Source: Thermoleophilaceae bacterium
GTDB taxonomy: Bacteria > Actinomycetota > Thermoleophilia > Solirubrobacterales > Thermoleophilaceae
DNA: 64,000 nucleotides
Assembly (NCBI GenBank): GCA_040901445.1
Contig: JBBDYQ010000001.1
Location: 124,001 to 188,000 of the forward strand
Reading direction: 5' to 3'
Shown here: positions 2,491 through 57,328 of the stretch, one piece after another
Position numbering within the stretch: position 1 is the first letter of the stretch
Layout: every line of letters begins with the position of its first letter
The notes under the pieces: model-generated
Database searches by the model: none
Seen by the model: the letters and a program-made list of their open reading frames with translations, nothing else
What the model was told of the DNA's origin: nothing
Made by a program: the position numbers and the translations under genes

Positions 2491-3881
2491 TGGCCTCCAC
2501 GCGACCGCGGGTGGCCATCGTCGGCGCCGGCCCCGCCGGGGCGTTCGCCGCCGCCGGGGTGCTGCGCGCGGGCGGCGACGCCGAGATCGACCTGTTCGAG
2601 CGACTGCCCACGCCGTGGGGGCTGCTGCGCGGCGGCGTGGCCCCCGACCACCAGGAGATCAAGCGCCTGGACGAGACCTTCGACCGCGAGACGCTGGGCC
2701 GGGGCTGCCGCTTCCTGGGCAACGTCGAGGTGGGCGTGGACATCTCGCACGCCGAGCTCATGCGCCACTACACGGCGGTGATCTACGCGACCGGCGCCCA
2801 GACCGACAAGTCGCTGGGGATCCCCGGCGAGGACCTGCCCGGGAGCTGGGCCGCCACGGAGTTCGTCGCCTGGTACAACGGCCATCCGGACTACCGCCGC
2901 CTCGAGTTCGACCTGTCGGCGGAGCGGGCCGTGGTGATCGGCAACGGCAACGTGGCGGCGGACGTCACGCGGATGCTCACGCTGAGCGCCGCCGAGCTCG
3001 AACGCACGGACGTGGCCGACCACGCGCTGGAGGCGCTGCGCGAGAGCCGCGTCCGGGAGGTTGTCGTGCTCGGCCGCCGGGGTCCCGCGCAGGCGGCGTT
3101 CACGAGCGCGGAGCTGCGCGAGCTGGGCAATCTCGACGGCGTGGAGCTGCGGGTCGATCCCGCGGACGTCGAGCTCGACCCTGTGTCGCGCGAGTGGCTG
3201 GCCGAGCACGGCACGTTCACCGCGCGCAAGAACGTGGAGCTGCTGCGCGGGTTCGCCGGCCGCCGGGCGCAGCCCGACGCCGGCCGGCGGATCGAGCTGC
3301 GCTTCCTGTCCTCTCCCCTGGACATCCGCGGGAACGAGCGGGTCGAGGCGGTCGTCGTCGGCCGCAACCAGATCGTGCGGTCCGATGACGGCGCGCTGAG
3401 GGCACGGGGCACCGACGAGGGCGCCGAGACCATCGACTGCGGACTCGTCCTGCGCTCGGTGGGGTATCGGGCGGTGCCGCTGCCCGATGTGCCCTTCGAC
3501 GAGCACGGCTTTGTGCTGCCCAATGAGCGAGGGCGGGTGCTCACGCCCGGCGGCCGTCCGCTCCCGGGCGTCTACGCAGTGGGCTGGATCAAGCGCGGCC
3601 CCACGGGCATCCTGGGCACCAACAAGCGCGACGCCGAGGAGACGGCGGGTTGCCTGGCCGAGGACCTCCGGGCCGGCGCGCTGCCGCCACCGGCGGAGCC
3701 GGGTCGCGAGCAGATCGACGCGCTGCTGGCCGAGCGCAAGCCCGACCTGGTCACGGCGGAGGGCTGGCGCGCGATCGACGGCCAAGAGCTCGAGCGCGGC
3801 CGCGCCGGGCAGCGCCCGCGGGTGAAGCTGGCGTCACGGGATGAGCTGCTGGACGCGGCCGCCGCCCCCCGGCCTGCCTGA
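2490..3881 (+). CDS. fprA: Ferredoxin-NADP+ reductase, FprA/adrenodoxin reductase family
   Basis: This 463-residue flavoprotein transfers electrons between NADPH and the ferredoxin encoded just upstream. The FAD-binding glycine motif VAIVGAGPAGAFAA sits at the N-terminus, followed by the family block LPTPWGLLRGGVAPDH. A second nucleotide-binding motif, AVVIGNGNVAADVTRM, near residue 150 holds NADP. The C-terminal GWIKRGPTGILGTNKRDAEET block covers the flavin. Length and order match FprA of mycobacteria. The likely role is to supply reduced ferredoxin to P450s or other ferredoxin users, but no partner enzyme is seen here. Confidence 0.92.
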   Translation: MASTRPRVAIVGAGPAGAFAAAGVLRAGGDAEIDLFERLPTPWGLLRGGVAPDHQEIKRLDETFDRETLGRGCRFLGNVEVGVDISHAELMRHYTAVIYATGAQTDKSLGIPGEDLPGSWAATEFVAWYNGHPDYRRLEFDLSAERAVVIGNGNVAADVTRMLTLSAAELERTDVADHALEALRESRVREVVVLGRRGPAQAAFTSAELRELGNLDGVELRVDPADVELDPVSREWLAEHGTFTARKNVELLRGFAGRRAQPDAGRRIELRFLSSPLDIRGNERVEAVVVGRNQIVRSDDGALRARGTDEGAETIDCGLVLRSVGYRAVPLPDVPFDEHGFVLPNERGRVLTPGGRPLPGVYAVGWIKRGPTGILGTNKRDAEETAGCLAEDLRAGALPPPAEPGREQIDALLAERKPDLVTAEGWRAIDGQELERGRAGQRPRVKLASRDELLDAAAAPRPA

Positions 3882-21451: not shown

Positions 21452-21514
21452 AGAGGCTGTCTCAGAATCCCGCGTGTGCGGCTGGCATGCGCGGGGGGTT
21501 CTGAGACAGCCTCT
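21452..21514. repeat. 63-base palindrome after the glycosyltransferase gene
   Basis: A perfect 16-base inverted repeat, 21452-21467 (AGAGGCTGTCTCAGAA) and 21499-21514, continues with an imperfect CCCGCG/CGCGGG inner stem and a small loop. It begins at the stop codon of the glycosyltransferase on the minus strand and ends before the sortase gene. It may be a terminator, but the unusual arm sequence resembles transposon-terminal repeats, so a miniature mobile element is also possible. No second copy was seen in this window. Confidence 0.65.
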
Positions 21515-22716
21515 TACCCAGGAGGGCGCCCGGCCGAAGCAGGTCCGCCGCGGAGGCGGGCGTGGAGGTCGCGCAGCTCGGCCGCGGCCGAGGCCGGCGA
21601 GTGGCGGTCCCGTACGGAGTCGAACCAGGCGCGGGCGCGGTCGTGGGCCCGGGGGTCGGCCGCCAGACGCAGCACCGCGGCGGCCAGGGTGGCGGGCTCG
21701 GCGTCCGCGCACAGGACGCCGGCCTCGCCGCTCTCGAGCAACTCGACCGCGGCGTTGTCGGGCTCTTGCACGAGCACGGAAGGCAGCCCGTGGGCGGCCG
21801 CCTCGAGCACCACGAGCCCGAAGCCCTCGCGGGTGGTGGGCAGGACCAGTGCCCGCGCGCGCAGCATCGCCGCGCCCAACTCCTCCTCTCCCACGAAGCC
21901 GGGCACCTCCACCGCTCCCTCACCAAGCGCCGCGGCGGCGCTCTCCACGCGCTCCCGCTCGGGGCCGTCGCCGTACACCACGCCGCGCCAGGACGGGTCG
22001 TGGCGGCGCAGCTCCGCCACCACCGCCGGGAGCAGGTGCGCGCGCTTCTGCGGCACGAGCCGGCCCGCGAACAGCACGAGCGGCTCGCGGCCCTCGGCGC
22101 CGGCCCGCCCGGGCGGAGCGCCCGCCGGGGGGAACTCGGGGACCACCGTGGCGCGGCCCCCCAGACGGGCGGCGTGGAGTCGCGAGAACGTGACCGCGGC
22201 GTCTCCCGTGCGCATGGCCAGCCCCTGCACGAGCCGCCCGAGCGCGCCTCCGAGCCGGCCGCGGCGATCGCGCCAATCCTCCGGCGACAGCACCTCGTGC
22301 CAGTCGGCCACCAGTGCGGTGCGGCGATGCGGCAACAGCCCGACCCGCGCCGCCAGTATCGCCAGGCCCTGAGGAAACGAGCACACGTGCACGACCTCGT
22401 AACGCCCGCCATTCCAAAGCAGGTGACGGGCCAGGGCCAGCGGGAAGCCCAGCCGCCCACCGCGCCCGAGGCCCACGATCTCCACGCCCGAGGGGGTCAG
22501 GTCTTGCGATGCAGCAACAGAACTCGAGCCGAAGGCTCCTGGTGCTGCATTGCAAGACCTGACCCCCTCCGAGCCGCCGGAGACAGTCCGGCTCACCAGC
22601 GTCACGGGCTGCCCGTCCCGCCCCATCTCGGCCGCGATCGCCGCATACCACCGCTCCGCGCCGCCGATCGTGTGCGGCCACAGGTGGTCGTAGACGAGCG
22701 CGACGCGTCCGCTCAA
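21514..22716 (-). CDS. GT4-type glycosyltransferase with an in-frame palindromic insertion
   Basis: This 400-residue enzyme has the GT-B retaining glycosyltransferase layout. The N-domain begins VALVYDHLWPHTIGGAERWYAAIAAEMGRDGQPV. The C-domain has LVLFAGRLVPQKRAHLL, a GDGPERERVE segment and the donor-binding EGFGLVVLEAAAHGLPSVLV with the E-x7-E pair. Between residues 50 and 76 a stretch of low family character is encoded by an 80-base palindrome (22490-22569) that keeps the frame open. The TTG start overlaps the upstream stop as TTGA. Donor and acceptor are unknown; it follows an M28-like gene and precedes a sortase gene. Confidence 0.85.
   Translation of the reverse strand: MSGRVALVYDHLWPHTIGGAERWYAAIAAEMGRDGQPVTLVSRTVSGGSEGVRSCNAAPGAFGSSSVAASQDLTPSGVEIVGLGRGGRLGFPLALARHLLWNGGRYEVVHVCSFPQGLAILAARVGLLPHRRTALVADWHEVLSPEDWRDRRGRLGGALGRLVQGLAMRTGDAAVTFSRLHAARLGGRATVVPEFPPAGAPPGRAGAEGREPLVLFAGRLVPQKRAHLLPAVVAELRRHDPSWRGVVYGDGPERERVESAAAALGEGAVEVPGFVGEEELGAAMLRARALVLPTTREGFGLVVLEAAAHGLPSVLVQEPDNAAVELLESGEAGVLCADAEPATLAAAVLRLAADPRAHDRARAWFDSVRDRHSPASAAAELRDLHARLRGGPASAGRPPG
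22490..22569. repeat. 80-base REP-like palindrome inside a glycosyltransferase gene
   Basis: Arms 22490-22507 and 22552-22569 pair perfectly over 18 bases (GAGGGGGTCAGGTCTTGC against its complement). The stem then continues for about 12 more pairs with one G-T and one mismatch. The centre holds a separate GAGCC/GGCTC hairpin (22526-22538). GGGGTCAGGTCTTGC resembles the REP sequences that accompany REP-associated (RAYT) transposases in other genomes, as I remember them. It is read through in frame by the glycosyltransferase gene. A 17-base piece recurs in hemL (56859-56875). Confidence 0.8.
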
Positions 22717-55654: not shown

Positions 55655-56083
55655 TCAGGCCGGTGAGGCCAGGCGCTGCGCCACCGCGGCGCGAGCTCCG
55701 TCCCCCTCGCCCGCGCCCAGCTTGGCGCCGGCGGCGTCCCAGGCGGCGTCGGCCAGGTCGGGCCTGCCGTCGGCCTGGGCCCAGGCGCAGAGCGAGATGA
55801 GGTCCGACAGCTCGGCCACCGCCGCCACGTCCCCGGCGTCGGCGAGCCGCGCCAGGCCGAGCGCGTAGAGCGTGTCGCCCGCCAAGAGGCGCAGATCGCC
55901 GTCCATCCCACTGAACGCGCGTGGCTCGCCATAGTGCATGAGATAGCCCTCGTGGACGGCCTCGAGCACGAAGGCGCGGTCGGGGTCGGCCACCTGGTCG
56001 AAGCGGCCGGGGCCGGGATCGAGCCGCGCGTGCGCGGCGAGCGCCGGCTCGGCAGCCTCCGCGACGCGCGCCAGGACGCTCAC
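55655..56083 (-). CDS. Conserved hypothetical protein next to hemL
   Basis: I do not recognise this 142-residue protein. It is alanine-rich and mostly helical, with one conserved-looking block, DRAFVLEAVHEGYLMHYGEPRAF, and another, LLAGDTLYALGLARLADAGDVAAVAELSDLISLCAW. Its GTG start overlaps the stop of hemL as GTGA, so it is translated with hemL. Being last in the hemB-ahbAB-hemL transcript suggests a link to tetrapyrrole supply, but nothing in the sequence proves it. Confidence 0.65.
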   Translation of the reverse strand: MSVLARVAEAAEPALAAHARLDPGPGRFDQVADPDRAFVLEAVHEGYLMHYGEPRAFSGMDGDLRLLAGDTLYALGLARLADAGDVAAVAELSDLISLCAWAQADGRPDLADAAWDAAGAKLGAGEGDGARAAVAQRLASPA

Positions 56084-57324
56084 GTGGAAAGCGCCTCCCG
56101 GGCGGCGGCCAGCGTGCGGTCGACCTCCTCCTCCCCGTGGGCCAGTGACGGGAACCAGGCCTCGAACTGCGATGGCGGGAGGTAGACGCCGCGCGCGAGC
56201 ATGACGCGCCAGAAGCGGGCGAAGGCGTCGAGGTCGCAGGCGGCCGCGGCCGCGTAGTCGCGCGGGGGCTCCGGCGCGAAGAAGACGGTGAGCAGGCCGG
56301 GCCGCCAGACCACCGACACCGGCGCGCCCACCGCCTCGAGGCCGGCGGCGAGGCGCGCGGTGGTGGCCTCGAGGCGCGCGTAGGCACTGCCGTCGAGCAG
56401 CCCGAGGGTGGCGAGGCCGGCGGCGGTGGCCAGCGGGTTGCCCGAGAGCGTGCCGGCCTGGTAGACGTCGCCGGCGGGCGCCACGCGCTCCATCAGCTCG
56501 CGGGGGCCCGCGAAGGCCGCGGCCGGGAGGCCCCCGCCGATGACCTTGCCGAGGATCGTGAGGTCGGGCGTGACACCCTCGCGCTCCTGGGCGCCGCCGC
56601 GCGCCACGCGGAAGCCCGTGATCACCTCGTCGAACACGAGCAGCGCGCCGCTCGCGTGGGCGGCGCCGCGCAGGAAGGGCAGGAAGCCCTCCTCCGGCGG
56701 CACCACCCCCATGTTGCCCGGGTAGGGCTCGCAGACGATGGCCGCGACCTCCCGCTCCGCCAGCGCGCGCTCCACTGCCTCGCGGTCGTTCCAGGGAGCC
56801 ACGATCGTGTCGGCCACCTGCGCGGCCGTGACGCCCGCACTGGCCGGGAGCTGCTGGGTTGCAAGACCTGACCCCGCCTCCGCGAGCAGGCCGTCCACGT
56901 GACCGTGGTAGGCGCCCGCGAACTTGAGGATCGCGTCGCGGCCGGTGGCCGCGCGGGCCAGGCGCAGCGCGCTCATCGACGCCTCGGTCCCCGACGAGGT
57001 CATCCGCACCATCTCCGCCGACGGGATGCGGGCGACCACCTCCTCGGCCAGCTCCACCTCGGCAAGCGTGGGCGCGCCGAAGCTCGTGCCCCGCGCCGCA
57101 GCCGCCTGCACGGCCTCCACCACCTCCGGGTGGGCGTGGCCGGCGATGAGCGGCCCCCAGGAGCAGACCCAGTCGACGTAGGAGTTGCCGTCGACGTCCT
57201 CGATCGAGGCGCCCTGCCCGCCGGCGATGAAGATCGGATCGCGCCCCACCGCCCGCATGGCCCGGACGGGGGAGTTCACACCGCCCGGCAGCAGCGCGAC
57301 GGCGCGCTCGTACGGCGTGCTCAC
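56080..57324 (-). CDS. hemL: Glutamate-1-semialdehyde 2,1-aminomutase
   Basis: This 414-residue PLP enzyme makes 5-aminolevulinate, the start of haem and sirohaem synthesis by the C5 route. It has PYERAVALLPGGVNSPVRAMRAVGRDPIFIAGGQG, WVCSWGPLIAGHAHPEVVEAV, MVRMTSSGTEASMSALRLARAATGRD, ALLVFDEVITGFRVARGG and the PLP lysine in LTILGKVIGGGLPAAAFAG. A 17-base stretch in codons for GLATQQ matches the arm of a REP-like palindrome at 22550-22566; the encoded residues still resemble the family loop. It begins 4 bases after the AhbA-AhbB-like gene. Confidence 0.94.
   Translation of the reverse strand: MSTPYERAVALLPGGVNSPVRAMRAVGRDPIFIAGGQGASIEDVDGNSYVDWVCSWGPLIAGHAHPEVVEAVQAAAARGTSFGAPTLAEVELAEEVVARIPSAEMVRMTSSGTEASMSALRLARAATGRDAILKFAGAYHGHVDGLLAEAGSGLATQQLPASAGVTAAQVADTIVAPWNDREAVERALAEREVAAIVCEPYPGNMGVVPPEEGFLPFLRGAAHASGALLVFDEVITGFRVARGGAQEREGVTPDLTILGKVIGGGLPAAAFAGPRELMERVAPAGDVYQAGTLSGNPLATAAGLATLGLLDGSAYARLEATTARLAAGLEAVGAPVSVVWRPGLLTVFFAPEPPRDYAAAAACDLDAFARFWRVMLARGVYLPPSQFEAWFPSLAHGEEEVDRTLAAAREALST
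56859..56875. repeat. 17-base REP-arm match inside hemL
   Basis: TTGCAAGACCTGACCCC is identical to the right arm of the palindrome in the glycosyltransferase gene (22550-22566). No opposite arm is present here. It could be a half element, or chance in a GC-rich genome. Confidence 0.35.
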
Positions 57325-57328
57325 GGCC

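Follow-up and report, generated by a model that had tools for sequence, protein, structure and literature searches.

How did a long, near-perfect palindrome come to lie in frame within a gene for a GT4-family glycosyltransferase, and what kind of element does it represent? The question is raised by a locus in the window analyzed here, a stretch of 64,000 nt from the genome of a Thermoleophilaceae bacterium (Table 1). The palindrome consists of two 31-nt arms (22490-22520 and 22539-22569) that are 94% complementary and separated by an 18-nt spacer. As single-stranded DNA, it is predicted to fold with -41.2 kcal/mol compared to a mean of -16.95 for shuffled sequences (z = -10.0), and none of 200 shuffles folded equally well, which bears out the near-perfect 80-base hairpin reported in a preliminary description of this DNA.

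The frame of the GT4 gene, which likely starts with a TTG codon at 22716, stays open across the palindrome, and the encoded protein has Pfam domains on both sides of the hairpin segment (PF13439 at residues 17-185 and PF00534 at residues 208-360), as expected from the earlier claim of an in-frame position. The peptide of the hairpin region includes SSSVAASQDLTPSGVEIVGLGR. In the alignment with homologues that the preliminary description had proposed, the hairpin-encoded residues are absent from nine of nine same-family homologues found by BLAST and from a paralogue in the same genome (43% identical), where the boundaries of the insert are approximate and the relatives compared are of the same family, none of the same genus. 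The palindrome had also been described as adding about 27 residues. The hairpin does encode about 27 residues, but the VT..RLGF segment, as read from the alignment, comprises 54 residues in the window protein, whereas the closest homologue has 39 and a typical one 46, and some native loop residues are gone. The net gain is therefore 8-15 residues, which does not correspond to a clean 80-bp insertion. Moreover, neither the 74-nt hairpin core nor the full 80-nt span is divisible by three, so that further sequence must have been gained or lost at the site. Four of the six reading frames of the hairpin are open, and the copy may be tolerated because of these open frames and because the segment of the N-terminal domain that receives it varies in length. 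It would then be translated, in a working enzyme, as an extra loop segment with the above net gain; PDB alignments of the protein reach the C-terminal half only, and thus the loop is not placeable on a solved structure.

Table 1. Coordinates of the palindrome, its host gene, the lone arm in hemL, and loci in other genomes where the arm flanks transposase genes. Positions in the first eight lines are those of the window; L numbers denote loci in other genomes.
Feature	Position	Strand	Basis or remark
GT4-family glycosyltransferase gene	21514..22716	-	Pfam PF00534/PF13692/PF13439; homologues 39.9-49.2% identical
Whole palindrome	22490..22569	.	Codes EGVRSCNAAPGAFGSSSVAASQDLTPS
Arm 1, TIR-type end, GGGGTCAGGTCTTGC + GATGCAGCA	22493..22516	+	15-mer 38x in genome; R1 model match
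Arm 2, inverted, GGGGTCAGGTCTTGC + AATGCAGCA	22543..22566	-	15-mer count; arm-pair comparison; R1 model
Unpaired AACTC bulge	22521..22525	+	Same in all 9 long-form copies aligned
Tip hairpin GAGCCGAAGGCTC	22526..22538	.	Folding and pair counts
hemL, glutamate-1-semialdehyde 2,1-aminomutase	56083..57327	-	PDB GSAM matches to 2e-133; orthologues 65-78%
Lone 26-nt arm in hemL, ungapped	56850..56875	-	Codes AGSGLATQQ
L218 (Aminicenantes)	15-mers 1368 and 2036	+ and -	Gene 1465-2025 between
L222 (Actinomycetota)	15-mers 1419 and 2351	+ and -	Flank transposase gene
L234 (Hydrogenophilales)	15-mers 226, 272 and 1184, 1217	+, + and -, -	Flank transposase gene
L147 (Deltaproteobacteria)			Exact 15-mer flanks NF047646 gene
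L221, L230			Near variants of 15-mer flank transposase genes

A dispersed family of palindromes

The proposed genome search recovered the arm in many places: the 15-mer GGGGTCAGGTCTTGC has 38 exact and 14 one-mismatch occurrences in the 3.54-Mb genome. The reversed 15-mer, used as a control, has no match in the same genome, which rules out a chance origin of the arm copies. The arms make up about 27 dispersed palindromes (approximately 23-75 bp, mostly about 50-75) and several lone arms. Model matches at C2:10039 and C17:55993 are weak and look like chance. The outer 15 nt of the arm are near-constant, and the following 9 nt differ between elements, but the two arms of one element resemble each other, with an agreement of 7.9 out of 9 within an element compared to 5.28 out of 9 between elements (reached in 0 of 20,000 permutations). 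The window copy belongs to the longer form of the element, whose members share a tip hairpin and an unpaired AACTC bulge that does not vary. Among nine copies of this long form, 98.4% of the pair cells are paired, compared to 88.7% in shuffled copies, and nine stem pairs show compensatory changes on both sides; shuffled and slid structures are clearly inferior on these measures of pairing and compensation. The flanks of intergenic copies are unrelated to one another, and no clean target-site duplication and no target motif was found in the 21 full copies examined.

A codon-usage scan, self-trained and rough, places most copies between coding stretches, with several near stop codons. At least five full palindromes, including the GT4 copy, are located inside or at the end of ORFs. 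A DUF455 gene (C6:18926) and a membrane-protein-like ORF without a Pfam match (C6:40200) each contain one in frame, and an MFS transporter (C10:56559) and a radical-SAM CofG/H-like gene (C25:184023) each read one in frame at the C terminus. Other copies yield WGQVLQ/LQDLTP-type peptides in unrelated proteins. PMC3733652 reports in-gene REP dimers coding 20-30 amino acids, as well as REPs in genes of O. terrae, Thauera, Xanthomonas, S. maltophilia, and others. An intragenic position alone is accordingly neither new nor mainly rickettsial, contrary to the earlier statement that coding palindromes are known mainly in Rickettsia, and the argument from rarity is weak.

The arm as a transposase-flanking end in other genomes

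None of the 40 nearest other genomes searched contains the exact 15-mer. Within the class, 19 of 399 genomes (own genome counted) have it, in a patchy distribution, and a search across genome contigs found it in many phyla, with the Thermoleophilia MAG SHVL01000034.1 among the matches. The match in one of the 19, G191 (contig position 3376), agrees in sequence and position with that MAG, which suggests a place in Thermoleophilia for the window's genome. Elsewhere, the genes that lie between copies of the 15-mer are about 190-300 codons long and begin with MARP[LMI]R (Table 1). Six of the flanked genes match NF047646 (REP-associated tyrosine transposase), five of them above the curated cut-off, and the flanked transposases fit NF047646 better than NF033573. 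The association of the arm with RAYT transposases, which the preliminary description had suggested, is thus observed in other phyla. The RAYT gene that might have been expected alongside it was not recovered: the profile search found no match to PF01797 or NF047646 in the window's genome (completeness given as 100%), by which a resident RAYT is dismissed at HMM sensitivity, and no match to NF047646 in 30 same-family genomes. The papers returned by a literature search with the arm sequence were all unrelated to bacterial repeats.

The two arms probably represent two head-to-head terminal inverted repeats (TIRs) of a TIRYT/RAYT-type element, in which a Y1 HUH transposase would lie between GGGGTCAGGTCTTGC ends, after loss of the transposase gene. 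As single-stranded DNA, such a dimer would fold into a hairpin, those of the family being of the GGGGTCAGGTC type, and the copies would most likely owe their spread to a RAYT-family transposase acting in trans, since lost or never settled. We infer this mobilization from the relatives in which the ends flank a transposase gene. Several observations count against a transposon-end dimer, namely that no RAYT or Y1 gene was found in the genome, that neither a clean target-site duplication nor a target motif was found for the copies, that the event at GT4 was not clean, and that no same-genus empty site exists among the genomes compared. On balance, the feature is probably a non-autonomous, REPIN-like dimer of TIRYT/RAYT-type transposon ends, tolerated in frame in the GT4 gene.

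Further arrangements of the arm were observed in other genomes. At the Deltaproteobacteria locus L147 (1194-2952), the ends that flank the RAYT gene seem to supply C-terminal codons of an adjoining uvrC-like ORF. In two genomes of the same class, the arm spacing is near-fixed at 117-140 bp (G160 contigs C102, C133, and C252; G366 contigs C16, C17, and C96), which suggests longer element forms there. Burkholderiales contigs (L094, L095, L099, L105, L111, L128, L136, and others) contain many lone copies of GGGGTCAGGTCTTGC followed by unrelated sequence, the carriers being Pelomonas, Roseateles, Mitsuaria, and Paucibacter. At the same-class loci L338 and L342, ORFs over lone arms carry Pfam domains.

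Lone arms in conserved genes and alternative explanations

Three lone arms of the window's genome are located within conserved domains with little or no change in length. The arm in hemL is identical to the palindrome at C4:103393 in 25 of 26 positions and matches the family-arm sequence in 24 of 26, compared to 11-18 of 26 in 19 orthologues, all 19 of which align without gaps and have nearly the same peptide, AGSGLATQ. The codons TCA, GGT, CTT, and GCA of this arm are rare in the window, and the joint codon probability given the amino acids is about 3e-8, where the best synonymous choice would have 4.6e-3. The arm in a methyltransferase gene (C25:556955; L036 2006-2032) matches the palindrome at C25:78520 in 33 of 34 positions, which take in 7 bases of that palindrome's own flank (AACGGCC); most orthologues are gapless and match the arm in 11-16 of 27 positions. 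The arm in a gene for an ATP-dependent DNA ligase (C15:231284; L042 about 1980-1999) matches the palindrome at C6:18926 in 27 of 29 positions, with most orthologues gapless and matching in 7-11 of 20. The ligase is the weakest case because one orthologue naturally carries GACCTGACCCCG at the arm site. A possible fourth lone arm is located in a gene for an FAD-dependent oxidoreductase (DAO; L334 1473-1491, C10:165372).

These tracts look like replacement rather than insertion; an insertion followed by an exact compensating deletion would account for them less simply. The chances seem evenly balanced that palindrome arms donate templated overwrites of about 26-34 nt to conserved coding sequence at partly similar sites. 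Transposon-end codons would in that case be gained without insertion and spread by conversion or template switching, for which, with three cases in one genome, we would put the prospects at roughly half. The overwriting of coding sequence would be the novel part of the finding, as judged from the sequences of these three cases. Higgins proposed in 1988 that REPs evolve by gene conversion (as cited in PMC3116915 and PMC8266576), and a literature search on template switching returned nothing on REPs.

The same processes may be extended to the whole family, in that replication template switching or short gene conversion would copy arms, and also entire hairpins, wherever short stretches of flank match, free of any transposase, and the GT4 copy would be a templated replacement of the loop rather than an insertion. 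This is a possible but rather unlikely origin. It would explain the close matches of the gapless lone arms to palindromes, the transposase not found in the genome, and the native loop residues lost from the GT4 segment, but a complete new hairpin is not easily made at an unrelated site, the intergenic copies have unrelated flanks, and the arm is found on either side of RAYT genes in several phyla. A further alternative is that the hairpin is retained because it acts in the GT4 transcript, for instance by stabilizing the mRNA or through pausing or attenuation. The coding-strand RNA fold is very stable (z = -8.7) and the tip stem is terminator-like on the coding strand; however, the terminator-like match has a weak T run and is mid-gene, the hairpin is missing from every homologue compared, and the same family is present in many unrelated contexts, which makes such a function improbable. 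An adaptive protein segment of the GT4 enzyme, as might be suggested by the kept frame and the intact catalytic-domain sequence, is less probable again, since the residues are encoded by the repeat and other copies give the peptides named above in unrelated proteins. Assembly artefact or contamination is hardly credible despite the draft genome of 25 contigs and its estimated contamination of 2.66%, as the copies are spread over more than 10 contigs, some of more than 300 kb, with differing inner stems and flanking genes.

Comparison with known systems

Non-autonomous derivatives of IS200/IS605 elements have single-strand hairpin ends recognized by Y1 HUH enzymes, and the feature resembles them in having hairpin ends of the Y1 HUH type. 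In contrast, the ends here are palindromic, inverted, and of the RAYT/TIRYT type, and the transposases of relatives match NF047646, not NF033573. An IS200/IS605 element with its own TnpA was rejected, as the 74-nt core is too short for a gene and no Y1 gene was found in the genome. The palindromic elements of Rickettsia (RPE) are likewise in-frame genic palindromes of 20-30 codons; unlike these, the copies here are mostly intergenic and an origin from transposon ends is traceable.

Similar to REPINs (PMC3116915), the family consists of inverted pairs that form one hairpin in many dispersed copies, with variable spacers and ends conserved together, and it is mainly extragenic according to the rough coding calls. 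It differs from REPINs in that a GTAG-type tag is missing, the copies number only about 27, no RAYT was found, and several members are intragenic. E. coli genomes that keep REPINs without a RAYT gene are known (PMC8049555). A canonical REP was rejected, as the aligned arms and flanks have no conserved GTAG/CGTC tetranucleotide at the stem foot. The label "REP-like" of the preliminary description is thus appropriate for a dispersed arm that flanks RAYT genes, but not for its ends, which lack the tag and have the TIRYT motif GGGGWSAS.

According to PMC3733652, some TIRYT genes have terminal repeats that share GGGGWSAS, with many of the repeats present as dimers, and GGGGTCAG, present in nearly all arms, fits this motif. 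The likeness to these TIRYT/TIRtron elements extends to ends that flank Y1 tyrosine transposases, here in other genomes, and to TIR dimers in dispersed families, whereas no transposase was found in this genome and some of its copies are within coding sequence. Lone arms that overwrite conserved genes are not among the descriptions of TIRYT elements in the available part of PMC3733652. The locus would link a coding palindrome that lacks the tag with the ends of Y1 elements of a widespread but little-studied class, here in a Thermoleophilia genome from which the transposase is gone, and the gapless arms in hemL, the methyltransferase, and the ligase provide specific sites at which the conversion proposal of 1988 can be tested against transposition.
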